Origin: Deltaproteobacteria bacterium
GTDB lineage: Bacteria; Myxococcota; Myxococcia; Myxococcales; SZAS-1
DNA length: 64,000 nt
NCBI GenBank assembly: GCA_018266075.1
Contig: JAFEBB010000032.1
Location: forward strand, 1-64,000
Reading direction: 5' to 3'
Position 1 is the first letter of the stretch. Every line of letters begins with the position of its first letter. The position numbers and the translations under genes were made by a program. A model generated the notes under the pieces. It was not told the DNA's origin, ran no database searches, and worked only from the letters and a program-made list of their open reading frames with translations. Below are positions 7,883 to 55,132 of this stretch, piece by piece.

Positions 7883-9091
7883 ATGGGCGTCCAAGTCGAG
7901 CTGTCGAAGGATCTCGCGCGGCACCTGCGCGCAGGCCACCCGTGGGTCTTCCGCAAGGCGCTCAAGCAGCCGCCGCGGATGCCCGCGGGAACCATCGTCG
8001 ACGTGGCCGAGAACGGGCGCTTCGTGGCCCGCGGCTACTACGACCCGCTCTCTCCCATCGCCGTGCGCGTGCTCACCCGCGACGAGCGTGAGCCGATCGA
8101 TCGCAGCTTCTGGAAGCGGCGCGTGGCCGACAGCCTCAAGCTCCGGCGCGAGCTGCTCGACCTCTCGCACACCGACTCGTTCCGGCTGCTCCACGGCGAG
8201 AGCGACATGCTGCCGGGCGTGAACGCCGACCTGTATGCCGGCTTTGCGGTGCTCAAGCTGTACAGCGCCGGGCTCACGCCGCACCGCGAGGCCATCGTGG
8301 CCGCGCTGCGCGACAACGTGCCGGACCTGCTCGGCGTGCTCGGCCGCGACGAGCTCTCCCGCGACGACGCCGAGGACGAGAGCGATCGTCCCGCGCAGGG
8401 GCGCCCGCTCTGGGGAAAGCCGCCGCCGCAGAAGCTGTGCATGACCGAGAACGGGATGAAGCTCTGGCTGGATCCGTACACCGGCCAGAAGACCGGCATG
8501 TTCCTCGACCAGCGCGACAACCGCCGCCTGGTGCGCGACCTCGCCAAGAACCGCAGCAGCGCGCTCAACATGTTCTGCTACACGGGCGGCTTCTCCGTCG
8601 CGGCGGCGCTGGGTGGGGCCAAGCGGGTGGTGAGCGTCGACTCCGACGCCGACGCGGTGGCGCTCTGCCGCGAGAACTTCGAGCTCAACGAGCTGGGGCC
8701 CGCGAACCACGAGTTCGTCGCCGATGACGCGTTCAAGGTGCTCGACCGCTACAAGGCCGAGGGCAGAAGGTTCGAGCTCATCGTGCTCGACCCGCCCGCA
8801 TTTGCGAAGAGTCAACGTACGGTCGAAGCCGCCCTCGACGGCTACGCGAGCCTGAATCGCGCCGCCCTCGCTTTGCTCAGTCCCGGCGGACTCTTGTGCA
8901 CGGCGTCATGTTCCGCGCGCGTCTCGGCCGAGGATTTCTTCACAGCAGTGAAGGAAGCCGCGTTCAAGGCGCGGGTGGACCTGCAACTCGTCCACCAGCG
9001 GTTCCAGCCGCCCGACCACCCTGTCCTGGCTCAGTTTCCCCAGGGCAGGTATTTGAAATTCTTTGTCTTTAGGCGGCCGGGCGGAGTGTGA
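7883..9091 (+). CDS. rlmI: Class I rRNA large-subunit methyltransferase, RlmI family
   Basis: 402 residues. An N-terminal PUA-type RNA-binding domain (residues about 1-75: LRAGHPWVFRKAL...GTIVDVAENGRFVARGYYDP) precedes a Rossmann SAM-dependent methyltransferase. Motifs: DPYTGQKTGMFLDQRDNR, the SAM-binding ALNMFCYTGGFSVAAALGGA, acidic VVSVDSDADAVAL, and the catalytic-region LIVLDPPAFAKS. This arrangement is that of RlmI/RlmO-like enzymes that make m5C in 23S rRNA; CTASCSARVSAEDF carries the expected C-terminal motif. An insertion around residues 155-185 (acidic, DDAEDESDRPAQ) is unusual. Tandem heptamers surround its ribosome binding site. Confidence 0.88.
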   Translation: MGVQVELSKDLARHLRAGHPWVFRKALKQPPRMPAGTIVDVAENGRFVARGYYDPLSPIAVRVLTRDEREPIDRSFWKRRVADSLKLRRELLDLSHTDSFRLLHGESDMLPGVNADLYAGFAVLKLYSAGLTPHREAIVAALRDNVPDLLGVLGRDELSRDDAEDESDRPAQGRPLWGKPPPQKLCMTENGMKLWLDPYTGQKTGMFLDQRDNRRLVRDLAKNRSSALNMFCYTGGFSVAAALGGAKRVVSVDSDADAVALCRENFELNELGPANHEFVADDAFKVLDRYKAEGRRFELIVLDPPAFAKSQRTVEAALDGYASLNRAALALLSPGGLLCTASCSARVSAEDFFTAVKEAAFKARVDLQLVHQRFQPPDHPVLAQFPQGRYLKFFVFRRPGGV

Positions 9092-17290: not shown

Positions 17291-18148
17291 ATGGCGTCGA
17301 AGAGCAAGCCCGCATCCAAGAAAGCCGCATCCCCCAAGGCCGCCGCGAAGGTCGCTTCGCCGACCAAGCCGCGCCGCTGGCGCTGGGTCGCAGCGGGGCT
17401 CTTCGTCATGGCCGCGGCGGTCGTCGTGCACGCGTTCGCCACCCTCCCCGACGCCGACGAGATCGCCCGCCTCGCCAAGCGCCCGCCGCACTCCACCGCG
17501 CTCATCGACGCGCGCGCTCGCGAAGCGGAAAAAGAAGGTCACCGCTTCACGAAGCAGCAGCGCTGGGTGCCCCTGGGCGAGGTGGCGCCGGAGCTGGTGT
17601 CGTGCGTCATCGCCAGCGAGGACGCGCGCTTCTTCCTCCACGACGGCGTCGACGTCGCCCAGATGAAGCAAGCGGTGGAGAAGGACCTGCGCACGCACCG
17701 CTATGCGCGCGGCGCCTCCACGCTCACCCAGCAGCTCGCGAAGAACCTCTGGCTCACCGAGAACAAGAGCCTGCTCCGCAAGCTGCAGGAGGCCGTGCTC
17801 GCCGAGCGCCTCGAGGACGCGCTCAGCAAGGAGCGCATCCTGGAGCTCTACGTGAACGAGGCCGAGTGGGGCGAAGGCATCTTCGGCGTGGAGGCCGCGA
17901 GCCGCGCGTACTTCAACCGCGAGCCGCGCGCGCTCACCCTCGCCCAGAGCGCCATGCTCGCCGCCATGCTGCCTGCGCCGCGCCGCCTCTCGCCGCGCAC
18001 CGACGCCGCCGAGCTCTTGCCCCGCGCCCGCCACGTGCTCGAGCGCGTGGCCGACGAGCACCTCGCCACGCCCAAGGCCCTCGCGCTCGCGCGTGAAGAG
18101 CTGGAGCGCACGCTCGCGCCGGGGGAGCGTCGTCAAGCAAGTATGTAG
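17291..18148 (+). CDS. Monofunctional peptidoglycan glycosyltransferase (MtgA-like, GT51)
   Basis: 285 residues. A Lys/Ala/Pro-rich cytoplasmic N-terminus (residues 1-28) precedes one membrane segment (WVAAGLFVMAAAVVVHAF), then the GT51 domain: catalytic Glu in ASEDARFFLHDGVD, RGASTLTQQLAKNLWLT, second Glu area in AVLAERLEDALSKERILELY and VNEAEWGEGIFGVEAAS. No transpeptidase domain follows, so it polymerises lipid II glycan strands alone (MtgA type). A degraded copy of its 3' end is present at 23077-23213. Confidence 0.93.
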   Translation: MASKSKPASKKAASPKAAAKVASPTKPRRWRWVAAGLFVMAAAVVVHAFATLPDADEIARLAKRPPHSTALIDARAREAEKEGHRFTKQQRWVPLGEVAPELVSCVIASEDARFFLHDGVDVAQMKQAVEKDLRTHRYARGASTLTQQLAKNLWLTENKSLLRKLQEAVLAERLEDALSKERILELYVNEAEWGEGIFGVEAASRAYFNREPRALTLAQSAMLAAMLPAPRRLSPRTDAAELLPRARHVLERVADEHLATPKALALAREELERTLAPGERRQASM

Positions 18149-18267
18149 AAATCGCCTGACGCGACGCGCAAAGTTGTCGGGCTCTCCATTACTTGTTGGC
18201 CCCGCACCGGGCCGATACTCTCACCAGGTTGAAAAACATTGGTGTCGTGAGAGCGGGAGGGCGCTGC

Positions 18268-19371
18268 ATGACGGCTCGTCGAAGGCTGATGTCCTGGGTT
18301 GTGGTGGGTTGGGCGCTGGGGTTCGCGGGAAGCGCCTCCGCGACAAACGCCAAGCTCGAAGACGCGAAGGCCAAGCTGGAGCGGCTCCAGTACTCGAGCG
18401 CGGCCGAAGAGCTCAAGCAGGCGCGCCAGGCAGACGGGCTCTCCCACGACGACCTCTTGCAGATCCTCGAGCTGCAAGGCGTGACCGCCGCCGCGCTTGG
18501 TCGCAGCGAGGAGGCGGAGCAGTTCTTCCGCGAGCTGGTGGTGCTGGCGCCGGACTTCAAGCTGCCCAAGCGCTGGGGCCCGAAGATCCAGACGGCGTTC
18601 TTCGGCGCCAAGAGCTGGCTCGACGATCAGCAGCCCATGTCGCTCAGCCGCCAGGCGCCCCAGCAGCTCGACGGCAAGATCGTGGGCGTCCAGCTCCAGC
18701 TCGGGCCGGATCCGCTGCAGCTCGTGCGCCGGGTGCGCGTGCACCTCATGCCCGAGGGCGCGAATGCTTCCGTCGAGACGCGCGAGACCAGGGCGCCCGC
18801 GGCGGTGACGGTGGCCGTCGCGCCAGGGGCCACGGTGCGCTGGTGGGCCGAGTCGCTCGGCGTCCACGGCGAGGTGCTCCAGGTCCTCGGCAGCAAGGAC
18901 GCGCCCGTCACCGATCACCTCGAGCCGCCCGCCCCTGCGCCGAGCGCGCCGCCGGTGCCGCTCGCGGCCGGGGAGCCGGCGCCCAAGCCCAGCGGCGGAC
19001 TCGAGCCGTCGAGCAGCGTGGAGAAGCAGGCCGCCGGCGGTGAAGCGCCCATGAGGCCTCTGGCGTACGTGCTGATGGGGGTGGGCGCCGCGGCGCTGGT
19101 CACGGGCGCGGTCTTCGCGACCCAGGTCTCCAGCGCGCACTCCAAGCTCGACCACCCCGAGCTCGACGCCAATGGCCACGTCGTCGGCATCACCCAGAAG
19201 GACGCGCAGTCGCTGGTGGACCAGTCCAAGTCGCAGGCGGCCATCGCCAACATCTGCCTCATCTCCGGCGGCGTGCTCGCTGCGGGCGGCGGCGCCGTCT
19301 ACGTGTACGGCATGCTCAATCCCTCGAGCCCGGGCAGCGGCGGCGGGGTGGGCGTGGGAGGCCGGTGGTGA
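18268..19371 (+). CDS. Secreted TPR-like protein with C-terminal membrane segments
   Basis: 367 residues from ATG 18268 with GGGAGG at 18255-18260. The signal peptide MSWVVVGWALGFAGSASA is followed by a helical TPR-like region (AKLERLQYSSAAEELKQARQ and LGRSEEAEQFFRELVVL), a beta-rich domain and a Pro-rich linker (PPAPAPSAPPVPLAAGEPAP). Two hydrophobic segments near the C-terminus (PLAYVLMGVGAAALVTGAVF and ANICLISGGVLAAGGGAVYV) form a hairpin. This architecture recurs in myxobacterial envelope proteins. Function unknown. The next gene begins 29 bases after its stop. Confidence 0.75.
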   Translation: MTARRRLMSWVVVGWALGFAGSASATNAKLEDAKAKLERLQYSSAAEELKQARQADGLSHDDLLQILELQGVTAAALGRSEEAEQFFRELVVLAPDFKLPKRWGPKIQTAFFGAKSWLDDQQPMSLSRQAPQQLDGKIVGVQLQLGPDPLQLVRRVRVHLMPEGANASVETRETRAPAAVTVAVAPGATVRWWAESLGVHGEVLQVLGSKDAPVTDHLEPPAPAPSAPPVPLAAGEPAPKPSGGLEPSSSVEKQAAGGEAPMRPLAYVLMGVGAAALVTGAVFATQVSSAHSKLDHPELDANGHVVGITQKDAQSLVDQSKSQAAIANICLISGGVLAAGGGAVYVYGMLNPSSPGSGGGVGVGGRW

Positions 19372-19400
19372 GCATCGCGATCTCGAGTCGGGGGTTCTCC

Positions 19401-21362
19401 ATGAAGACAGCTGCTCCGTGGCTCTTGGGCGTTTCGCTCGCGCTGGCTGGTTGTGGTGGTGCGACGCTTCCCAACCAGCCCTTCGCGTGCACCGCCAACG
19501 CCGACTGCGCGGCAGGCTTCATCTGCCAGCAGGGCGTGTGCGTGTCCGCGGCCATCGCGGCCGGCTCCACCAACGCAGCCAGCGGCAGCGGCGCGAGCTC
19601 CAGCGGGAGCACGACCACGAGCACGACCGAAGGCGCGTCGAGCAGCGGCAGCAGCACCAGCGCGTCGACGACGAGCACCACATCGAGCAGCAGCACCAGC
19701 GCCACCGCGTCCTCGTCGTCGGGCAGCAGCAGCACCGCGAGCACGTCGAGCAGCGGGAGCGGCAGTGGCAGCACGGGCGTCGCGTCCACCGGCTCGTCGA
19801 GCAGCACCACCTCGACGACCAGCAGCGGCTCGTCCAGCGCCACCAGCAGCACCGGGAGCTCCTCGAGCTCTTCGTCGACCACGTCCACATCGAGCACCGG
19901 CTCCACGGGCTCGAGCGGCTCCAGCGGGAGCACCGGCAGCACCTGCGGCAGCGGCGAGGGCACGCTCACCGCGGACGTCTACCTCGAGGTGGGCAGCGGC
20001 GACGACTACCAGGCGGTGGTGGCCGTGGCGGGCGGCACGCCGGTGATGCGCATGCACGCCGCGACCCCCTTCATCTGGAACGAGGAGCAGGGCAAGACCT
20101 GGTACACGTTGAACAACACCATCAGCCAGGGGTCAGGCACCACCCAGAGCTACTCGCTCTGCGTGCCGGCCGGGGACTACACCCTGCAGTTCTGGGACGT
20201 GTGCGGCGGCGGCGGGTCGTGCAGCTCCGGCTTCGGCTTCAACGCCGGCACGCCGCCGGCCACCGCCTACGGCTCCGGCTGGGAGGTCGGCGACCCGTCG
20301 CGCGTGGTGAGCGTGACGGTGGGACAGGAGACGCGGGTGCGGCTGAACCAGACCAAGACCAACGTCCCCACCTGGGACAACTTCTATGGGACCTACGCGA
20401 CCTGGTCGTACGGCGACTGCAGCGGCGGCCAGAGCTGCCCGGGTTTCGCCACTTGCTACCAGGGCACCTGCGTGGACACGGGCTACGACTTTCACAACTG
20501 CGGCACGGGGGGCAGCGCCTGCACCGGCGGCACCGCCTGCTGCGCAGGCGTGTGCAGCGACGAGTCCTCGGACAACAACAACTGCGACGGCTGCGGCGTG
20601 GTCTGCGGCCCGGGCACCACCTGCACCAGCGGCGTATGCACGCCCAACGATGGCACCTGCGGCGTCCTCACCGCCGAGGTGGGCACCGACTCACCCGCCG
20701 ACCCCACCAACTACCAGGGCATCTTCGCCGTCGCGAACGGCACCCCCGACGAGAACACCGGCCCCGGCGTGTACTGGAACGTGGAGAAGAACAAGACTTG
20801 GTACACGTTGGCCTCGCAGATCTTTACCGACCCGTACCTGCGCTACGTGTACTCGGCGTGCGTCCCGCCGGGGAGGTACACCCTGCAGATGTGGAACGAC
20901 GGCTGCGTGAACAACCAGGGCGGCTGCGGCACCTTCGACAACGGCATCCCGCCCAACCCGGTGTACGTCTGGGAGATCGGCGACGCCACCCTGAGCCTCC
21001 CCGTCACCACGGGCAGCGTCACGGCGGTGAACGTGATCAACTCGCTGAAGCACGTGCCCACCTACGACAACTTCTACGGCGCGTACGCGCTCTGGAGCTA
21101 TGGCGGCTGCGGCACCTACTGCCCGCCCAGCGGCGGTTGCTCGTCGGAGACCTGCGCACTGGGCACCACTTGCCTCCAGGGCGCCTGCCACGACACCACG
21201 CACGACATCCTCGCCTGCGGTACTGCCGGCAGCGCTTGCCCCACTGGCCAGCTCTGCTGCAGCAGCACATGCACCGACAACGGCAGCGACGACAACAACT
21301 GCGGCGAGTGCGGCATCGTCTGCACGGGCGGGCAGCACTGCGTCACTGGACAGTGCCAGTGA
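19401..21362 (+). CDS. Lipoprotein with Ser/Thr-rich linker and two tandem Cys-rich repeats
   Basis: 653 residues from ATG 19401 (GGGGG upstream). Lipobox LALAGC (Cys18); a small Cys module, ACTANADCAAGFICQQGVC (residues about 29-47), is followed by a 130-residue Ser/Thr/Gly linker. Two homologous units of about 230 residues follow, each starting with a beta domain (LTADVYLEVG or LTAEVGTDSP; the KTWYTL motif is shared), passing through DNFYG(T/A)YA(T/L)WSYG, and ending in a knot like NNNCDGCGVVCGPGTTC. The DNNCGECGIVC modules resemble Cys-rich stigma-type repeats in myxobacterial surface lipoproteins. Probably an extracellular adhesin or binding protein. Confidence 0.87.
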   Translation: MKTAAPWLLGVSLALAGCGGATLPNQPFACTANADCAAGFICQQGVCVSAAIAAGSTNAASGSGASSSGSTTTSTTEGASSSGSSTSASTTSTTSSSSTSATASSSSGSSSTASTSSSGSGSGSTGVASTGSSSSTTSTTSSGSSSATSSTGSSSSSSSTTSTSSTGSTGSSGSSGSTGSTCGSGEGTLTADVYLEVGSGDDYQAVVAVAGGTPVMRMHAATPFIWNEEQGKTWYTLNNTISQGSGTTQSYSLCVPAGDYTLQFWDVCGGGGSCSSGFGFNAGTPPATAYGSGWEVGDPSRVVSVTVGQETRVRLNQTKTNVPTWDNFYGTYATWSYGDCSGGQSCPGFATCYQGTCVDTGYDFHNCGTGGSACTGGTACCAGVCSDESSDNNNCDGCGVVCGPGTTCTSGVCTPNDGTCGVLTAEVGTDSPADPTNYQGIFAVANGTPDENTGPGVYWNVEKNKTWYTLASQIFTDPYLRYVYSACVPPGRYTLQMWNDGCVNNQGGCGTFDNGIPPNPVYVWEIGDATLSLPVTTGSVTAVNVINSLKHVPTYDNFYGAYALWSYGGCGTYCPPSGGCSSETCALGTTCLQGACHDTTHDILACGTAGSACPTGQLCCSSTCTDNGSDDNNCGECGIVCTGGQHCVTGQCQ

Positions 21363-21403: not shown

Positions 21404-23044
21404 GTGCAAAACGCGGGAGCCCTCTCGATCAGCGACGCGTTCGCGGGCCCGCGGCAGCTGGGCCGCTACACGCTCCTCGTGAAGCTCGCCACCGGCGGCA
21501 TGGCCGACATCTTCCTGGCCAAGCAGCGCGGCGCGCAGGGCTTCGAGAAGCTGGTGGTGGTGAAGCGGATCCTGCCCAACTACGCCGCGGATCCCGAGTT
21601 CGTGGGCATGTTCCTCGACGAGGGGCGGCTGGCGGCGCACCTCACCCACCCGAACATCGTCCAGACGTTCGACCTCGGCGAGGACGCCGGCAGCTACTTC
21701 ATCGCCATGGAGTACGTGGCCGGCGAGAGCCTGGTGGCCATGGCGCGCGCGGCCCGGCTCAAGGGCAAGCTCATCGACGACCGTTTCTCGGCGCGGCTCA
21801 TCTCGCAAGCCGCCGTGGCGCTGGATCACGCGCACCGCCAGACGGATGTGATGGGCAGCCCACTGAACATCGTCCACCGCGACGTCTCGCCGCAGAACCT
21901 GCTCGTCACCTACGACGGCCAGCTCAAGGTCGTCGACTTCGGCATCGCCAAGGCGGCGAACCGCGCCACCCAGACCGGCGACGGCCAGGTGAAGGGGAAG
22001 ATCACGTACATGGCGCCGGAGCAGCTCCGCGGCGACCAGGAGGTGACCGGCCAGGCCGACATCTTCGCGCTCGGCGTGGTGCTCTTCGAGCTCGTCACCG
22101 GCACGCGGCTGGTGGAGGGCGGCGACCAGGCGCGGGCCATCTCGCTCATCGGTGGCAACGCGCCCATGCCGCTGCCCTCGGAGCGGCGGCCCGATCTCGA
22201 CGCAGAGCTCGACCGGATCATCGGCCGGGCCATGAAGAAGGATCTCGGCGAGCGCTACAAGACCGCGGGCGAGCTTCACGCCGACCTCGAGGCCTGGCTG
22301 GGCACGCACCAGGTGACGGCCGCGGAGATCTCCGCGTTCGTGCGCGAGCTCTTCTCCGACAAGATCGCCAAGCGCAAGGAGATCATCGAGAAGGCGCTGA
22401 AGGGCGAGTTCGAGGCCAAGGGCGAGGTGGGCGTCGCGGAGGCCAAGAGCGGCGGCTCCATGCCCGACGGCACCGCCTACGTGCACGAGCCCTTCGCGGC
22501 CATCCAGCGTCAGCAGCGCATGAAGGTGCTGGCCGGCATCGGCGGCGGCGCGGCGCTGCTCATCGGCGTCGGCGTCTTCGCGTTCGGCCACCATGGCTCG
22601 GAGCCCGACCCGCAGCGAAAGCCGCCCATGGTGGCGACGCCCGCTCTCGCTCCCGCTCCCAAGCCGGCGGAACCCACGCCCGCGCCGCCAGCACCTGCGC
22701 CGACGCCGACGCCAACGCCGGTCGCTGCGACTCCCAAGCTCACTTCGACGCCCGCGCCCGCTCCGACACCAACGCCCGCTCCGACGCCGACGCCCATCGC
22801 CGTGGCGCCGAAGCCTGCGCACGTCTTCCGTGCGCGGCCGGGGAAGCTCTCCATCGACACCACGCCGTGGACCGAGGTCTTCTGGCGCGGCAAGAGCCTG
22901 GGCCAGACGCCGCTCATCGGCGTGGACTTGCCGCCCGGCTCGCAGCGCCTGGTGCTCAAGAACCCGGGCGAGAAGATCGAGCAGACCGTCGAGGTCGAGA
23001 TCAAGAGCGACCAGACGACCGCCAAGCGGCTGCGGCTCCAGTAG
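21404..23044 (+). CDS. Ser/Thr protein kinase with PEGA domain
   Basis: 546 residues from GTG 21404. Hanks-type kinase domain: glycine loop LGRYTLLVKLATGGMADIFL, Lys in LVVVKRILP, HRD in VHRDVSPQNLLV, DFG in VVDFGIAKA and APE in YMAPEQLRG. HRDVSPQN is the variant frequently found in myxobacterial kinases. A membrane segment (MKVLAGIGGGAALLIGVGVF, near residue 375) separates the cytoplasmic kinase from a Pro/Ala/Thr-rich periplasmic stretch and a C-terminal PEGA domain (SIDTTPWTEVFWRGKSLG...). It lies between two Cys-rich lipoprotein genes, but there is no direct evidence that it acts on them. Confidence 0.93.
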   Translation: MQNAGALSISDAFAGPRQLGRYTLLVKLATGGMADIFLAKQRGAQGFEKLVVVKRILPNYAADPEFVGMFLDEGRLAAHLTHPNIVQTFDLGEDAGSYFIAMEYVAGESLVAMARAARLKGKLIDDRFSARLISQAAVALDHAHRQTDVMGSPLNIVHRDVSPQNLLVTYDGQLKVVDFGIAKAANRATQTGDGQVKGKITYMAPEQLRGDQEVTGQADIFALGVVLFELVTGTRLVEGGDQARAISLIGGNAPMPLPSERRPDLDAELDRIIGRAMKKDLGERYKTAGELHADLEAWLGTHQVTAAEISAFVRELFSDKIAKRKEIIEKALKGEFEAKGEVGVAEAKSGGSMPDGTAYVHEPFAAIQRQQRMKVLAGIGGGAALLIGVGVFAFGHHGSEPDPQRKPPMVATPALAPAPKPAEPTPAPPAPAPTPTPTPVAATPKLTSTPAPAPTPTPAPTPTPIAVAPKPAHVFRARPGKLSIDTTPWTEVFWRGKSLGQTPLIGVDLPPGSQRLVLKNPGEKIEQTVEVEIKSDQTTAKRLRLQ

Positions 23045-23047
23045 CCG

Positions 23048-23085
23048 TTAACCGATCAGTTTCAAACCCGCAGGCAAGCTCTCGC
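23048..23085 (-). pseudogene. Relic of an Hsp70-family gene 3' end
   Basis: Reading the minus strand gives VLGESLPAGLKLIG and a stop, almost identical to the C-terminus (VFGESLPAGLRLLG) of the large Hsp70-family protein encoded at 25658-28450. On the DNA level a core beginning ACCCGCAGGCA differs at about one base in 22. No Hsp70 coding sequence continues upstream, so this is a truncated copy. It overlaps the start of the transglycosylase relic. Confidence 0.7.
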
Positions 23086-23213
23086 CCAAGACGATGCCGC
23101 CGAGTTCGTGCCACGCGCACGTCACGTGCTCGAGCGCGTGGCGGACGAGCAACTCGCCACGCCCAAGGCTCTCGTCTCGCGCGGGAGGAACTGGAGCGCA
23201 CTCTGGGCGGCCC
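23077..23213 (+). pseudogene. Relic of a transglycosylase gene 3' end
   Basis: About 135 bases closely resemble bases 17990-18125 of the MtgA-like gene; from GCCGCCGAG to CCCAAGGC roughly nine bases in ten agree. Translation gives PRARHVLERVADEQLATPKAL, against PRARHVLERVADEHLATPKAL. A one-base deletion after that breaks the frame, and the rest (ELERTL-like bases GAACTGGAGCGCAC) reads out of frame. No intact transglycosylase lies here, so it is a decayed duplicate. Confidence 0.8.
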
Positions 23214-23546
23214 TCGGCCCTCTTCGCCGGAGTCCCGATGGTGCTCCGGTTCGGCCTGCGAAAGCGCGCGGCTCGTCGCGAACGCGACATCGCTCGCATA
23301 TTGAGTCACGAGGCACGCGGCGGTCGCTTCACTCGCCGACCACATCGACGGGTTCAACAACCCAGCCCGGAGACACTCGCATGTCGATTACGCGAGCTCA
23401 CTCGAGTGTGAATTGAGAGAACCGGTCGCTGCACAAGCTGCATAATCAAACGGTCACAAAATCGGGGCAGGATCAGGCGAAGACACGTTGACTTCTGTCT
23501 CCGCCCCTGCAGACGATCGCAAGAAGAATGGGAGGACTCCGCAACC
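23214..23546. other. Non-coding stretch between relics and the delta-60 lipoprotein gene
   Basis: I see no convincing gene: reading frames are short and without consistent codon bias. Base composition becomes less GC-rich after about 23400. It contains CATAAT (23441-23446, like a -10 box) with no matching -35 element. A Shine-Dalgarno-like GGGAGG lies about 15 bases before ATG 23547. Confidence 0.5.
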
Positions 23547-25607
23547 ATGCGACAGGTTTCGTTCGGGGGTACGGTCCCGAGTCTTGTCTTGTTGACCTTG
23601 GCGGGGTGCGTCGTCCAGCCGCCACACTGCACGCAGGATTCTGACTGTCGCGCGGGCGCCTCTTGCGACACGCAGCACTTTAGTCCAGGGGTCTGCTTCG
23701 AGCGCAGCTCAAGTTCGGCATCTTCTGGACCAAGTACGATTGGTTCGTCGAGTGCTATTGGCGCTTCGTCGAGCGGGAGCAGCGGAGGACCGAGCGACAG
23801 CAGCGCAATCGGAACGAGTTCGTCGAGTTCCAGTGGAAGCTCCTATTCCACGAGCGCCTCAGGAACGACAACTGCAACTTCAACCGAAACGGCAGCATCG
23901 AGTGGCGCAGTCAGCTCGAACAGCAGCATGGGTGGCACAGGCGGATCGACAAGCGTGGCCAGCGTGAGCGTGGGATCAAGTGCCGGCGCCAGCAGTGGAA
24001 CCAGCGGTTCGGGAAGCGCAGTTTCGAGTGGCTCCACAGGCGCTGGGCCTCCTGTGATCTCGATGTTCACGGCAACCCCGAATGCAATCACCGCGGGCGA
24101 TTCCAGTCTGCTGTCCTGGACCGTAGCTGGCGCGACGCAGGTCACTCTTGACCCTGGCTCGATTGCGGTTGCTGGCTCGTCTTATTCCGTCTCGCCAAGC
24201 ATCACGACCACGTACGTGCTGACTGCATCCAACAATTCAGGCACGGTCAGTTCGAGTGTCGTCATGACGGTCTATCCTGTAGACAACGTCACAGTTTATC
24301 CCTCAATTGCAAGTATGAATACCGAAGGTGTTCGGGACTTTGTGGCCAACTCGTCTGGTGGGGTCACGTGGTCCGTCGATGAGGCGCCCAATGGCGGTGC
24401 GATCGACGCGACTGGGTACTACACTGCACCTTCGGAGGCTGGCGTCTTTCATGTAAGAGCAACCAGCAGCGTCAACCCCCTGGTGAGCAAGACTGCAGTC
24501 GTAAGTGTTTATTTCTCGGATGCCGGGACTCTAGACTACGAGTTCGGTTACGAAGGTACAGTCTCAATTCGTGGCCCCGATGACGCGGGCTTCATCGCTT
24601 CATCTGTACTGGTCGATCCCAACCATTTACTCCTCATCGTCGGAAGCGCCCCCGGAAGTCAACAAGGCCTTGCTGTGCGCTTCTTCCTCGACGGCGGGTT
24701 GGACTCGACGTTTGGAGCGCCAGCAACGCCCGGCTACGCACTACTGGGGTCCGGTACGCCCGTTCGACCGGCTCCATTGGGATTTGGCTACGCCGTACCC
24801 ATGAAACCCAGCAGCGGCAAGGCCTACATGTACGACCAAATTTCAATATTTGGTTCTGTCAACCGAATAGATCTTTCGTCGGTCTTGCCAACGCAGGGAG
24901 TGTTTACTGATAGCGCACCCGGAAGCCAAGGGTATGGGAGCGTATTCATCTCAGGATACGGCGGTAATGCCTATGTCGCGAGCGTTCAACTAGACGGAGG
25001 CTTAAATCGCCAATTCGGCGACGGAGGCATTGTTTCAATCTCCGTCAATTCGCCCGTCTATATAGCGCCGCGGTCGGACTGGGGAGTTGTGGCAGGAACC
25101 GCGTTCGGATCTTGGTACGACTGGCAGATTTCGCCAGGTGGAGCGACCTCGTCGCTTGCACCGGTTTTCGTCCAGCCGAACGCGTATGCGGGGCCATTGA
25201 CAAGCTTCATGGGCGGCCGATTCGTATTCTCGGCACTCCAAGGGTCTGGCACCCAAGCTTCGTCCGTTCTGGGGATGCTTTCCCCAGATGGTGGTTTAGA
25301 CCCGTCCTTTGGTGATGGAGGCTTACTAGCTTTACCGGACATGCCCAAGTCTGCTCCAATCTCGCTGTTTACGGACGACCGCGGCGAAATCGAATCCGCG
25401 TGGTCTTCCAGCGGGTGCGCGGTCGCGCAATACCTCGCGGACGGCCAACCCGATCCGGCATTCGGGGGCGGGACGGTGGTTATGGAAAGTCTGCCCGGAG
25501 AGGTTCTGACGACGTGCGGAGGACTCGTGCAGGGCAAATTGGGTGAAACGTTGGGCGTTGCGAATTGCGCCGACGGGTCGGCTATCTTGTTCGCGATTTG
25601 GCACTAA
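23547..25607 (+). CDS. Lipoprotein with Ser-rich linker, Ig-like domain and delta-60 repeats
   Basis: 686 residues. Signal peptide with lipobox LTLAGC (Cys21), a Cys module (HCTQDSDCRAGASC), and a Ser/Gly linker to about residue 165. One or two Ig-like domains follow (SMFTATPNAITAGDSSLLSW; VTWSVDEAPNGGAIDATGYY). The C-terminal half carries repeats of the delta-60 type: LDYEFGYEG, LDSTFGAPA, LNRQFGDGG, LDPSFGDGG and PDPAFGGGT, each opening a beta-propeller-like blade. Codon use is visibly less GC-biased than in neighbouring genes, with many A/T third positions, suggesting acquisition or lack of expression selection. Surface exposure likely. Confidence 0.88.
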   Translation: MRQVSFGGTVPSLVLLTLAGCVVQPPHCTQDSDCRAGASCDTQHFSPGVCFERSSSSASSGPSTIGSSSAIGASSSGSSGGPSDSSAIGTSSSSSSGSSYSTSASGTTTATSTETAASSGAVSSNSSMGGTGGSTSVASVSVGSSAGASSGTSGSGSAVSSGSTGAGPPVISMFTATPNAITAGDSSLLSWTVAGATQVTLDPGSIAVAGSSYSVSPSITTTYVLTASNNSGTVSSSVVMTVYPVDNVTVYPSIASMNTEGVRDFVANSSGGVTWSVDEAPNGGAIDATGYYTAPSEAGVFHVRATSSVNPLVSKTAVVSVYFSDAGTLDYEFGYEGTVSIRGPDDAGFIASSVLVDPNHLLLIVGSAPGSQQGLAVRFFLDGGLDSTFGAPATPGYALLGSGTPVRPAPLGFGYAVPMKPSSGKAYMYDQISIFGSVNRIDLSSVLPTQGVFTDSAPGSQGYGSVFISGYGGNAYVASVQLDGGLNRQFGDGGIVSISVNSPVYIAPRSDWGVVAGTAFGSWYDWQISPGGATSSLAPVFVQPNAYAGPLTSFMGGRFVFSALQGSGTQASSVLGMLSPDGGLDPSFGDGGLLALPDMPKSAPISLFTDDRGEIESAWSSSGCAVAQYLADGQPDPAFGGGTVVMESLPGEVLTTCGGLVQGKLGETLGVANCADGSAILFAIWH

Positions 25608-25657
25608 CAGTTAACGCTAGCCTACAAGAATGGAACCGCAGGGGACCCTAGGGGCCC

Positions 25658-28450
25658 TCAGCCAAGAAGCCTAAGACCCGCAGGCAGGCTCTCGCCGAAC
25701 ACGCGCGCCTCCTCGGCTTGCTCGAGCTGCACGCCCTCGCGCACCGCATGCAGCCATGGCTCGGGCGACTTCGCCAATTCGAGTCGCTTCGCCACGCGCT
25801 CGCGCAGCTCCGGTGCGAGGTCGCGGGCGCGATCGCCGGTGGCACGCGCGAGCAGCATGGCCGCGAAGGGCACGGTCTCCACCTGGGCGGCGTCGAGCGC
25901 GAGGATGCGCTCCAGCCACGCCTCGGCAACATCCGGTGTGACCACCGTGTGCGCCGAGCCGAAGAATGGCTTGCGCGCGCCAAGCCGGCCGATGGACCAG
26001 GCCAGCGTGGACGCGCCCGCGAACGGCTTGGCGTCGCTGGCCTTCGCGGCGCGCACGGCGTCGAGCCGCGCGAGGAGGATCTCGCCCAGCTCCTGCTTCT
26101 CGCGCGCCCCGAGGCGCTCCAGGCTCGCCGCGAGCCGCACCATCTCTTCGGAGCCCTGCGGCTGCACGCCCTTGGCCTTCGTCGGCTTCGCGCCGGGGAC
26201 GGGCAGGCGCAGGTGCGGCGCGAGCTGGGCGTAGATCACGCGGTGCGCGGCTTCGTCGAGCCCGCCGGCGATGCGGCGCCACATCACCCACCACTCGGTC
26301 CAGTTGGGCGTCTCGGTGTGGAACTGCAGCGCCGGCTCGAAGACCTTCCAGGTCTCGCCCGCGCGCCAGGCATCGAGCGGCGCGCCGAAGCCCGGCCGCA
26401 GCGTGAAGCCCGTGAGCTGGCACCACACGCGCTCGTGATCCGCGGAGCGACGCCGACGGCCCATGCCCGCGTGCAAAGCGCTCCAGAGCTCGCGACACAC
26501 GGCGGTCGACCAGACCTCGCGCGGGCCGAGCGCGCGCTCCAGGTTTCGAAACAAATCCTTTACATCGCGCGGGGACACCGGCATCGGCTTCTTGCCGTAC
26601 ACGCGCTCGACGAGCTCGCGACCCTCTTCGAACTTGGCGGGCAGCGGCTCGACGCGCGTGTCGCCTTCGCGTGCCGCCGCGCCGCGCAGCTGGAACTCGA
26701 GCTTCCAGCGCAGCTCCGATCCACCCGGGCCCTTGTCGGACACGAGGAAGAGCTCGAGCGTTCCCAGCTCGCTGAGCCGCGACACCATCCGGACCGGCAC
26801 CTGGCCCTGAAGCCCATTCGGCGCGCCGAGCACGGTCTGCAGCGCGGGCAGCGCCTCGAGCTCGTCGCCGAGCGGCAGGAGCTCGCCGGCTGCGCGCGCC
26901 GCATCGCCGGTGGACGAGAAGAGCTCGAAGCGCACCGGCTCGTTGAGGCGCAAGGCGAAGGTGCGCTCCAGCGGCACTTCGACGCCTTCCTCTTGCCGAC
27001 GCGGAACCACGCAGAGCGCCTGGGTCTTGCCGTCCTTCTCCACGCCCACGAAGTACGCGCGCGCCGAGCCGCCGCCGATGCGCACGCCCTCGCCGCGACG
27101 CACGCGGCCAAACCAGCTCGCGCCCCGCGCGACGGCGAGATCCAGGTCGTCGTGCTTGAGCAACTTCACGGGCGGTGAACCCGGGAACCAGGCGTTCACC
27201 ACCTCGAGCAGGCGCGTCTGGAGCAGCTTGGCGTTGAACACACCGCCATTGAGCAGGATCGCGTCCGGCCGCGGCAGCTCGACGAGCGGCTCGTTGAGCG
27301 CCTCCGAGACCGCGCCCGCGTGGCGACGCAGGAAGGCCACGATGTGCCGGGAGATGGCCGCGTCGGCTGCGTAGGGCAGGCCGAGCTCTTGAATCGCGGC
27401 GCGTCCTGCGCGCGCGGGCGCGGCGTCTCGCGGCACCTGCGGAAAGAAGCCTTCGACGATGCGCTGGCGGACCTCGTCGCGCGCGAGCTCGGTCTTGAGC
27501 GTGCCGCCCACGAGCTTCGAGCCGCGGCCGACGACAGCCACCGTGACCTTGTCCGGGCCGTCGTCGGCGAGCAGCTTCTCCTTCGCGTCGCGCGCGGCGG
27601 CCACGAGCATCGACCACTGCGTGGCGTCGAGCTTGTGCAGACCCACGAGCCGCTCTTCGCACGCGCGCGCGAGGAGCATGTCCATGTTGTCGCCGCCGAG
27701 CATCAAGTGATCGCCCACCGCGATGCGCGTGAGCTTGGGCCGGCCGTCGACGAATGCCGCGTGAATCAACGTGAGGTCCGTGGTTCCGCCACCGACATCG
27801 ACCACGAGGATGAGCTTCGCGCCGCCCAGCGCCGCCTCGAGCGCGCGCTCGTGCCGCGAGAGGAAGTCGTAGAACGCGGCCTGCGGCTCTTCGACCAGCA
27901 CGAACTTGGGCAGGCCTGCTTCCTGTGCGGCGCGGATGGTGAGCTCGCGCGCGACCTCGTCGAAGCTCGCGGGCAGGGTGAGCACCAGCTCCTGCTCGCC
28001 GAGCGGGTGGTTCGGGAACTTGCGATCCCACGCGTGGCGCAGGTGCTCCAGGTAGCGCGCGCTCGCGGTCACCGGCGACACGCGCTCCACTTCCGCCGGC
28101 GCACCCCATGGCAGGATCGGCGAGGTGCGCTCGACCGCAGGATTCGCGAGCCAGCTCTTCGCGCTCGCGACCATGCGTCCGGGTACGCGCGCGCCCTGCG
28201 CCCGCGCGAACTGGCCCACCACGTACGGCGGCTCGCTCCAGGGCAGCTTGGTGGCCCCTTCGGCGAGCTCGTGCGGTCCGGGCAGGTACAGAAAGCTGGG
28301 TAACAGCGGCAGCGGCTGAACCTGGCCCGGCCCGACGAGCTGCTCGACGCCCAGCACCTCCACATGCGCGCCCGTGCGCTCGGTGTCCGCGAGCGCGAGC
28401 ACGGTGTGCGTGGTGCCCAGATCGATGCCGACGACGTAGCGTGAGGCCAT
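25658..28450 (-). CDS. Hsp70-family protein with DUF3731-type C-terminal region
   Basis: 930 residues. An actin-like ATPase with DnaK signatures: VVGIDLGTTHTVLALA near the N-terminus, LILVVDVGGGTTDLTL (phosphate 2), and AILLNGGVFNAKLL. The usual peptide-binding lid is replaced by a large domain: EVWSTAVCRELWSALHAGMG and the Trp-rich TPNWTEWWVMWRRIAGG are features of DUF3731, found in long Hsp70 relatives whose substrates are unknown. It is the third gene of an operon after DUF2760 and a shorter Hsp70 paralogue. A fragment of its 3' end was duplicated at 23048. Confidence 0.92.
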   Translation of the reverse strand: MASRYVVGIDLGTTHTVLALADTERTGAHVEVLGVEQLVGPGQVQPLPLLPSFLYLPGPHELAEGATKLPWSEPPYVVGQFARAQGARVPGRMVASAKSWLANPAVERTSPILPWGAPAEVERVSPVTASARYLEHLRHAWDRKFPNHPLGEQELVLTLPASFDEVARELTIRAAQEAGLPKFVLVEEPQAAFYDFLSRHERALEAALGGAKLILVVDVGGGTTDLTLIHAAFVDGRPKLTRIAVGDHLMLGGDNMDMLLARACEERLVGLHKLDATQWSMLVAAARDAKEKLLADDGPDKVTVAVVGRGSKLVGGTLKTELARDEVRQRIVEGFFPQVPRDAAPARAGRAAIQELGLPYAADAAISRHIVAFLRRHAGAVSEALNEPLVELPRPDAILLNGGVFNAKLLQTRLLEVVNAWFPGSPPVKLLKHDDLDLAVARGASWFGRVRRGEGVRIGGGSARAYFVGVEKDGKTQALCVVPRRQEEGVEVPLERTFALRLNEPVRFELFSSTGDAARAAGELLPLGDELEALPALQTVLGAPNGLQGQVPVRMVSRLSELGTLELFLVSDKGPGGSELRWKLEFQLRGAAAREGDTRVEPLPAKFEEGRELVERVYGKKPMPVSPRDVKDLFRNLERALGPREVWSTAVCRELWSALHAGMGRRRRSADHERVWCQLTGFTLRPGFGAPLDAWRAGETWKVFEPALQFHTETPNWTEWWVMWRRIAGGLDEAAHRVIYAQLAPHLRLPVPGAKPTKAKGVQPQGSEEMVRLAASLERLGAREKQELGEILLARLDAVRAAKASDAKPFAGASTLAWSIGRLGARKPFFGSAHTVVTPDVAEAWLERILALDAAQVETVPFAAMLLARATGDRARDLAPELRERVAKRLELAKSPEPWLHAVREGVQLEQAEEARVFGESLPAGLRLLG

Positions 28451-28469: not shown

Positions 28470-30323
<1,854 letters not shown>

Positions 30324-30355: not shown

Positions 30356-30946
30356 CTACGGCAGCTCGACCTCGGCCGGCGCGACGACGCGGCCGTCGCC
30401 TGCCGGCTCGGGCACCGTGACCTTGGTCGCCTTCCAGCCGCGGTGCTTGAGCGTGCCGCGGAAGGGCGGGTTGCCGACGACGTTGCCCGTCAGCCGGATC
30501 GCCGCAGGATCGAAGCCGGCCTCCACGGTGATCATCGCGCCCTCGGGCTTGTCGAGCACGGGCGCGAGCGCGAGGTGCGCGGCGATGCTCTTGCGGCAAC
30601 CTTCGTAGACCGTCGAGCGCACCACGGCAGCCAGATCTGCGTCGCTGGCGCCGGCGAGGTCCTCTTGCAGGAAGTCCACGAGCCGGCCGTCGCGCTGGAG
30701 GATCGCGAGCAGCGCCACCGCTTCGGCGCCGGGCTCACGCGCGGGCTTGGCGGGCTCGGACGGCTTCGTCTCCACGGTCTGCACCCGCGCGGGCTGCGCG
30801 GCCTCGGGCGCGGGCGCGCTCGGCAGCGACGGCGAAGAGCCGTGGCGCAGCGCCCAGACGCCTTCGGCGAAGGAGCGGTCGAACCACACCTTGAAGAACG
30901 CCACGAAGGCCAGGAAGAACCGGTTCAGCCCGCTCATCGGCGGCAT
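30356..30946 (-). CDS. DUF2760 protein
   Basis: 196 residues from ATG 30946 (an alternative ATG lies three codons later). The N-terminus has a short hydrophobic helix (NRFFLAFVAFFKVWFDRSFA) that may associate with membranes, then a Pro/Ala/Glu linker (residues about 40-72) and the DUF2760 core: LLAILQRDGRLVDFLQEDLA, STVYEGCRKSIAAHLALAPV and GTLKHRGWKATKVTVP. DUF2760 genes sit beside Hsp70-family genes in many proteobacteria, so it is probably the partner or adaptor of the two Hsp70 paralogues downstream. First gene of the operon. The role is unknown. Confidence 0.85.
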   Translation of the reverse strand: MPPMSGLNRFFLAFVAFFKVWFDRSFAEGVWALRHGSSPSLPSAPAPEAAQPARVQTVETKPSEPAKPAREPGAEAVALLAILQRDGRLVDFLQEDLAGASDADLAAVVRSTVYEGCRKSIAAHLALAPVLDKPEGAMITVEAGFDPAAIRLTGNVVGNPPFRGTLKHRGWKATKVTVPEPAGDGRVVAPAEVELP

Positions 30947-51755: not shown

Positions 51756-52627
51756 GGCGTGCTCCTTTGAAGGCTGAGGCGACGGACCTCCGTCGCGGTG
51801 GTGAAGTCGGGGTTGGTCTCGTCGAGCTGGCTGGTGGCGCGCGCCACCTCGCCGAAGCACTCGAAGAGCCACGAGCTCTGCTGCGTGGTCACGGTCGCGC
51901 CCACGATGGGAACGACGGTCACCGTGGTCTTCACGCGCATGGCCTGGGTGAAAGTGATGTCCGGGAGGATCAGCGTGCCCGCAGAGTCGACGCTCACCGT
52001 GTACGTGTCCGTCGACGCGTAGGGCAAGCCGTCGAAGGTGCCGTTGCGCACTGTGCCCACCGACGTCCAGCTCGCGCCGGGCGTGAGCGGAAATCGATAT
52101 ATCGCGACGGGCTGGTCGTAGACGTAGAGCGTCTGGCCGTTGCTCGGGTTCTGCTGCGTCGACGCGATGCCGAGCAGATCCACCTCGGTGTCGCTGTGCG
52201 TGTAGACGCCCTCGAGCGTATCGGCCACGTCGAGCGGCGCGACCCACTGGCCATTCGGGAAGCTGCCCGCGTACCACTTGCCGGCGAGCGACTGCGCCTG
52301 GATCGACGCGAGCTGATCGCTCCCGTCATCTACGGAGAAGTCCCAGGTGCGCTTGCCGGCGCCGTCGACATCGCCGGTGAGATCGACGGTGCGCGTCTGC
52401 CCCGCGGGCGAGACGAGCAGCGACTCGGAGATTCCAATCGCGGCCTCTAATTCGTTCGCGTCGATCTGCCCGTCGAGGTTCGGCAGGCACGCGAGCTGGC
52501 CGGCGTCAGGGATGACGTAGTCCTGGTGCTCGGGCGGAACGGTGGTGTTGTCGCCGCACGCCGCGGCCCCAATCGCGATCGCAACGAAGATGTGGGAGGC
52601 GCTTCCCAGCGCCGACGAAGGTCTCAT
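51752..52627 (-). CDS. Lipoprotein of the PHA operon, paralogue of the one at 55145
   Basis: 291 residues from ATG 52627. The signal MRPSSALGSASHIFVAIAIG ends in GAAAC (Cys24). A beta-rich domain follows: GQTRTVDLTGDVDGAGKRTW, DFSVDDGSDQLASIQAQSLA, EGVYTHSDTEVDLLGIASTQ, PLTPGASWTSVGTVRNGTFD. The similar spacing of DLLGI, the (W)DF core and a PLTPG/LNASW turn shows homology to the lipoprotein encoded at 55145-56191. Codons 3-12 of the gene coincide with a REP-like element (52589-52616), so the signal sequence appears partly repeat-derived. Stops four bases into the PhaE-like ATG. Function unknown. Confidence 0.75.
   Translation of the reverse strand: MRPSSALGSASHIFVAIAIGAAACGDNTTVPPEHQDYVIPDAGQLACLPNLDGQIDANELEAAIGISESLLVSPAGQTRTVDLTGDVDGAGKRTWDFSVDDGSDQLASIQAQSLAGKWYAGSFPNGQWVAPLDVADTLEGVYTHSDTEVDLLGIASTQQNPSNGQTLYVYDQPVAIYRFPLTPGASWTSVGTVRNGTFDGLPYASTDTYTVSVDSAGTLILPDITFTQAMRVKTTVTVVPIVGATVTTQQSSWLFECFGEVARATSQLDETNPDFTTATEVRRLSLQRSTP
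52589..52616 (-). repeat. REP-like element, copy 1
   Basis: A 28-base unit identical to 55105-55132. Its centre folds as GGCGCT-GGGA-AGCGCC with flanking GTGGGAG-type bases, the pattern of RAYT-associated repetitive extragenic palindromes in gamma- and betaproteobacteria. This copy lies inside the coding sequence of the lipoprotein gene, encoding SALGSASHI of its signal peptide. Confidence 0.7.
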
Positions 52628-55104: not shown

Positions 55105-55132
55105 GATGTGGGAGGCGCTTCCCAGCGCCGAC
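55105..55132 (-). repeat. REP-like element, copy 2
   Basis: Identical over 28 bases to 52589-52616; this copy is intergenic, in the 89-base gap between the hydrolase start and the lipoprotein gene ending at 55145. The hairpin GGCGCT/AGCGCC with a GGGA loop lies at its centre. Confidence 0.7.

Follow-up and report, generated by a model that had tools for sequence, protein, structure and literature searches.

In a 64,000-nucleotide stretch of a Myxococcales genome (contig JAFEBB010000032.1; hereafter the window), remnants of the 3' ends of two genes, mtgA and an Hsp70/DUF3731 gene, were found joined at a shared 8-bp sequence. We hold with moderate confidence that this seam arose when two diverged versions of the same chromosomal interval recombined additively, DNA of a diverged relative being joined by way of homology in Hsp70 and microhomology at its other end. 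The genes concerned are arranged in the window in the order mtgA, an unannotated ORF, a Stig1-type lipoprotein-like gene, a kinase, the seam, a delta-60 lipoprotein-like gene, Hsp70/DUF3731, a second Hsp70, and a DUF2760 gene. The scar is real and informative, but ordinary in kind; it is passive, and we propose no function for it.

Table 1. Genes, relics, and shared sequences at the mtgA–Hsp70 locus (window coordinates).
Feature	Position	Strand	Remarks
Intact mtgA, monofunctional peptidoglycan transglycosylase	17291–18148	+	Pfam PF00912, E 2.4e-56; NCBIfam TIGR02070, 193.7 bits (cut-off 182.65)
Microhomology CTCTCGCCG in intact mtgA	17987–17995	+	
ORF, first gene of interval version A	18193–19371	+	GC3 0.91; no match in Pfam, PHROG, or NCBIfam
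Ser-rich, Cys-rich lipoprotein-like gene with Stig1 domains, version A	19365–21362	+	PF04885, E 3.7e-15; "lipoprotein" judged from the look of the N-terminus
Serine/threonine protein kinase, version A	21404–23044	+	PF00069, E 1e-34
Hsp70/DUF3731 3'-end relic	23048–23092	-	14 codons and stop; peptide VLGESLPAGLKLIG*
Seam CTCTCGCC	23079–23086	+	Common to both relics and both intact genes
mtgA 3'-end relic	23092–23204	+	Can be aligned from 23079 onwards; contains two one-base deletions
Delta-60, Ser-rich lipoprotein-like gene, interval version B	23547–25607	+	TIGR02608, E 1.9e-11, 43.7 bits (under the family cut-off of 76.5); no Pfam match
Intact Hsp70/DUF3731 gene	25658–28450	-	PF12531, E 3.9e-89; PF00012, E 3.8e-13
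Microhomology CTCTCGCCG at intact Hsp70 3' end	25689–25697	+	Plus strand of the minus-strand gene
Second Hsp70	28470–30323	-	
DUF2760 gene	30356–30946	-	

Local alignments and shuffled controls placed both relics at the position and on the strand given for them in a preliminary description of this DNA. Region 23079–23204 aligns with 17987–18114 of mtgA, with 87% identity over a core of 114 nt (18001–18114), and the score of 23092–23213 against mtgA was 158, as compared with 49.5 for the best of 1000 Markov shuffles. For the Hsp70 relic, 23044–23093 aligns with 25654–25703 at 74% identity over 50 nt (score 42.5; best of 1000 shuffles, 37), and nothing else on the plus strand of the window matches it better than the Hsp70 3' end (36.0 for the best of 200 shuffles; minus strand, 26.5). 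The peptide encoded by this relic fits the C-termini of Hsp70-family proteins read in 110 loci, some genomes being present twice; examples of such tails are VFGESLPAGLKLIG in locus L123 and VFGETLPAGLKLIG in loci L106, L116, and L130. The intact mtgA gene is the parent or an allele of the plus-strand relic, and the intact Hsp70/DUF3731 gene is the parent or an allele of the minus-strand relic.

When the 661-nt region was compared with its own genome, 40 of the 202 candidates being scored, mtgA was the one match at E ≤ 0.001 besides the region itself. In a survey of gene ends over 1,304,001 bases (13 pieces, about one-sixth of the genome, with 936 crude genes), the mtgA relic was the sole intergenic copy of at least 100 nt; the survey misses the 45-nt Hsp70 relic, and in it an antisense frame is called over mtgA. 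The two gene ends had been described as decayed. This holds for the mtgA end, which has two one-base deletions relative to mtgA, but the Hsp70 end reads unbroken. For annotation, it should be borne in mind that small ORFs in 23001–23416 overlie the gene ends and need not be genes.

The remnants do not meet tail to tail, as had been proposed. It is their truncated 5' sides that meet, while their 3' ends face outwards: the Hsp70 relic runs leftwards to its own stop codon (23048–23050), which is 3 nt from the stop codon of the kinase, and the mtgA relic runs rightwards. With the 3' ends outward and the 5' sides fused at the 8-bp microhomology, the suggestion that a transglycosylase gene and an Hsp70 gene once lay convergent at this site does not agree with the evidence. 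The shared CTCTCGCC starts at 23079 in the seam, at 17987 in intact mtgA, and at 25689 (plus strand) in intact Hsp70, and it amounts to nine bases in the two intact genes if the following G is counted. Its register in mtgA and Hsp70 agrees with both alignments, allowing a one-base gap. A match of at least eight bases within such a register window occurred in 281 of 20,000 random Hsp70/mtgA position pairs, and the plus strand of the window contains eight copies of CTCTCGCC, among them those of the seam, mtgA, and Hsp70. By itself, the microhomology is only about 1% against chance.

Along the plus strand, the pieces stand in tandem order: mtgA is followed by interval A, then by the Hsp70 end, the mtgA end, and interval B, and finally by Hsp70. 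Such an order results if two different versions of the mtgA–Hsp70 interval come to lie in tandem through one join, which links the Hsp70 end of the first to the mtgA end of the second. In self-comparisons, intervals A and B shared no DNA apart from these ends and Ser-rich stretches of low complexity.

Most of the differences between the relics and the intact genes are silent. In the Hsp70 relic, nine codons differ from the intact end (including TGA to TAA), with three residue changes (F/L, R/K, and L/I). In the mtgA relic, 13 of the 36 comparable codons differ, likewise with three residue changes, and the two one-base deletions break the frame. The combined test covers 51 codons only (36 from mtgA, 14 from Hsp70, and the stop), in which there are 25 differences, 18 of them at third positions, and six residue changes among 21 changed sense codons; left out were five codons at the left edge, where the mtgA and Hsp70 alignments overlap, and one codon at the second gap, where a base is missing. 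As it was their readable peptides that drew attention to the relics, the number of residue changes is biased downwards, and this bias is absent from the simulations described below.

Duplication followed by neutral decay was simulated in nine settings (three mutation biases by three levels of selection on the intact gene). A mean of about 13 changed residues was obtained; six or fewer were found in 0–2 of 1500 runs per setting, and at least 18 third-position differences in 0–6 of 1500 runs per setting. When both copies were constrained, the mean was about six residue changes at omega 0.1 and about nine at omega 0.2, with six or fewer in 10–13% of runs at the latter value. Tested singly under decay, the Hsp70 relic was matched in 14–52 of 1500 runs and the mtgA relic in 14–38 of 1500. 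Inclusion of four left-edge codons raised the number of residue changes to eight, which decay matched in 0–8 of 1500 runs. With the left-edge codons counted, the observed number was also unusual at omega 0.4 (5–20 of 1500 runs), and the data therefore call for fairly strong constraint. Such constraint is not self-evident for the C-terminal part of mtgA, since this part is poorly conserved across families. The divergence of the relics, being mostly silent, fits that of functional genes.

This preponderance of silent differences speaks against a plain duplication of the two ends with later decay. The preliminary description had offered a rearrangement in which both ends became repeated, with the lipoprotein gene between the copies, and this option comes close to the evidence except where it amounts to plain duplication and decay. 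A more explicit form of the latter is a simple tandem duplication within one lineage, between two CTCTCGCC sites, with subsequent differential gene loss and neutral decay of the ends. The order of the pieces is indeed that of a tandem duplication joint. However, decay predicts about 13 changed residues against the six observed (no more than 2 of 1500 runs per setting, or 8 of 1500 when the edge codons are included), the two intervals lack other detectable homology and differ in gene content, and several further losses would be required. We consider this course of events highly improbable.

A relic of a related kind was found elsewhere. A search for the final 300 nt of Hsp70 in 109 Hsp70 loci, in which some genomes are present twice, gave a single extra match longer than 100 nt; the others measured 21–89 nt. 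This match, in locus L092 (Sandaracinaceae MED-G138), is a 173-nt piece of that locus's own Hsp70 3' region (8659–8831; 93.6% identical), located 2.8 kb downstream of its Hsp70 gene on the same strand. Between the gene and the relic are ORFs that include one for a Cys-rich lipoprotein-like protein. The L092 relic thus resembles that of the window in that it derives from the 3' region of an Hsp70 gene of this kind and has a lipoprotein-like ORF in between. Unlike the relic of the window, it stops short of the final codons and was not seen to be fused to a second gene end. Its changes have the look of neutral decay, with seven residue changes in 10 changed codons (decay mean, 6.2). In 2000 runs with one mutation bias, P under constraint was 0.003 at omega 0.1 and 0.030 at omega 0.2. 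As the L092 relic comes out as decay, opposite to the relics of the window, the constraint test is able to give either answer.

The contig of L092 has no mtgA match at E ≤ 1e-6, which indicates that Hsp70 ends of this sort can arise alone. By analogy, the seam of the window might record two unrelated events, the lipoprotein gene having come with the mtgA end, and the Hsp70 end by the kinase having been left from a separate rearrangement. We regard this as improbable, as the two relics come together, to within a few bases, at an 8-mer that both parent genes contain.

The flanking genes have a GC content of about 70%; the values are 56% for 23045–23092, 70% for 23093–23204, 62% for 23205–23546, and 59% for the delta-60 lipoprotein gene. 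The GC3 of this gene is 0.61, versus 0.90–0.94 in the six neighbors measured. The genome contains three further matches to the gene on other contigs (C93:5913–7892, C82:87–1142, and C5:183698–184312), with which it makes up a small family of Ser-rich lipoprotein-like genes whose GC3 is unusually low for this genome. The three are 38–44% identical to it, in two cases over only part of the length, and have a GC3 of 0.61–0.71 in the matched stretches. As paralogues in the same genome share the low GC3, the low GC of the lipoprotein gene is no evidence for a distant donor, and we dropped it as proof of foreign origin. With residues 172–686 as the query, matches at E ≤ 1e-8 were obtained in 26 of the 59 other genomes of the order (best, 2.4e-13), all of which span less than a third of the query; full-length relatives were absent from these 59 genomes and were seen in the own genome only. 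Self-comparison of the stretches fetched revealed no scars like the seam beside the paralogues. As to a possible phage link, the lipoprotein itself has one weak PHROG match (E 1.1e-6, residues 66–243). Adjoining the paralogue on contig C93 is a Cys-rich, Thr/Ser-rich lipoprotein-like gene (C93:4473–5588; L167) with internal direct repeats of 69–80% identity.

A separate repeat was noted elsewhere in the window. Identical 28-bp repeats containing GTGGGAGGCGCTTCCCAGCGCC, an imperfect palindrome, are located at 52589–52616 and 55105–55132. The palindrome has 51 copies in the genome (two or fewer mismatches), as compared with none for the reversed pattern, and the copies include 13 inverted (-,+) pairs whose starts are 47–98 bp apart; this is a REP-like family. 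One of two Y1 transposase-domain genes (C10:16878–17201) is 1.6–2.5 kb from four of the copies.

A known process may account for the seam. In homology-facilitated illegitimate recombination, as set out in excerpts of two reports (PMC6382021, PMC2884548), one end of an incoming DNA is anchored by homology and the other is joined with little or no homology, by which new DNA is trapped. One-sided joining of this kind is known from competent bacteria (PMC6382021) and has been put forward to explain dimorphic segments in Escherichia coli (PMC2884548). For the locus studied here, one version of the interval would have consisted of mtgA, three genes ending in the kinase, and Hsp70, and the other of mtgA', the delta-60 lipoprotein gene, and Hsp70'. 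On the most economical account, a fragment with one version, coming from a diverged relative, would have paired by homology in Hsp70, and its other end would have been joined by illegitimate recombination on the 8-bp CTCTCGCC common to the Hsp70 and mtgA 3' ends. By such an event, which may have been a single one, a segment would be added without another being replaced. In the product, the kinase would be followed by the final 14 codons of the old Hsp70, then by roughly 125 bases from the end of the other mtgA, and after these by the lipoprotein gene and an Hsp70 that works. The newcomer may be the mtgA 3' end together with the lipoprotein gene and Hsp70, or conversely the other interval.

The short shared sequence that characterizes the illegitimate joint of such a product is present at the seam in the form of CTCTCGCC, and an intact Hsp70 gene stands where the long homology anchor is expected. 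No breakpoint was seen in a search along this gene, in which GC3 is 0.86–0.98 and falls to 0.74 in the last, partial 150-nt block only. The largely silent divergence of both ends lends support to DNA of another lineage beside the joint, a point on which GC content is uninformative and for which the genome searches gave no donor.

The main rival to additive recombination starts from two full, long-diverged mtgA-to-Hsp70 blocks in tandem, from which a later deletion between the CTCTCGCC sequences of Hsp70 copy 1 and mtgA copy 2 left the seam. The product would be identical, with the same microhomology and silent divergence. We nevertheless think it unlikely. It needs a large block, now vanished, with two working copies each of mtgA and Hsp70 and different cargo per copy, but the genome at E ≤ 1e-60 holds just the two Hsp70 genes of the window. 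Its transglycosylase matches number four; besides mtgA, there are among the matches listed two stretches, 37% and 44% identical, in long frames.

An assembly error was also weighed. The genome is in 166 contigs, and a chimeric join at a short repeat could occur in so fragmented an assembly. Yet the mtgA relic, with its two frameshifts and 13% divergence, is not a mis-joined resident gene, and the seam is well inside an 86-kb contig. We judge such an error very improbable indeed.

Relatives of the locus were sought in several collections. Neither of the single arrangements (an unfused sister locus) nor a donor was found in 59 order-mates, in 145 genomes of the order, or in the best 80 of 576 contig loci. 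The 59 order-mates are labeled as belonging to other families, with a best Hsp70 identity of 58%, and the contig scan with Hsp70 gave a best identity of 54% among the matches listed (the best 80 of 576). Following the preliminary description, the relic fragment was looked for as a conserved element elsewhere and as part of a single known gene, and was encountered as neither: of the 144 other genomes of the order, 16 had weak matches of 22–59 nt at E ≤ 0.001, none of which spans both pieces (five candidates scored per genome; 17 of the 145 genomes matched, including the own).

By tblastn at E ≤ 1e-6, mtgA, the 18193 ORF, and either lipoprotein gene were absent from the 109 Hsp70 loci, of which 29 have just 1.5 kb of flank and others end at contig ends. 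Kinase matches near Hsp70 were found in only two of the 109 loci (L094, about 8.5 kb downstream; L109, upstream). The arrangement DUF2760-Hsp70-Hsp70 recurs in most loci long enough to show it, but the neighbors on the 3' side of Hsp70 in the window do not. In two genomes (G033 and G056), mtgA and Hsp70 are 24–25 kb apart and face outwards; these are the closest pairs among the matches listed, and an mtgA–Hsp70 neighborhood was not seen in the other loci examined. The term "DUF3731" was not found in the literature searched, a body of text that leaves most subscription papers out of its scope.

The additive recombination proposed for this locus has partial counterparts in known systems. One-sided joining has been shown experimentally in competent cells of Acinetobacter baylyi, Streptococcus pneumoniae, and Pseudomonas stutzeri, according to the excerpted literature, whereas here it is read from one seam, and the homologous crossover was unseen. 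The locus resembles the dimorphic segments of E. coli in having alternative segments between the same conserved flanks, but E. coli strains carry one or the other, whereas here both are in tandem and the seam is readable (PMC2884548, in excerpt). The arrays of orphan immunity genes of the Vibrio cholerae type VI secretion system (T6SS), for which the authors discuss illegitimate, homology-facilitated displacement (PMC5361080, Sci Rep 2017), are similar in that new modules stand beside old ones and remnants are kept. Those arrays comprise effector–immunity modules whose retained immunity genes are useful, whereas the remnants in the window are without evident use; family scans named no effector–immunity module among the interval genes.

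Taken with the L092 relic, the seam raises the thought that the 3' end of Hsp70/DUF3731 might be a recurrent landing place for lipoprotein genes, which would arrive through one-sided homology and each leave an Hsp70-end scar. This idea, which draws on these two relics, the L092 one being decay-like and without a fused partner, is an improbable one. If it were true, such scars would be usable to count additive gene acquisitions in uncultured myxobacteria. The results also suggest that codon-position statistics, even on very short remnants, may separate a functional allele of another lineage from a copy that was duplicated and has decayed. The locus offers a readable natural example of recombination that seemingly added a gene beside the old segment rather than replacing it, in a lineage without a close relative in the collections searched.
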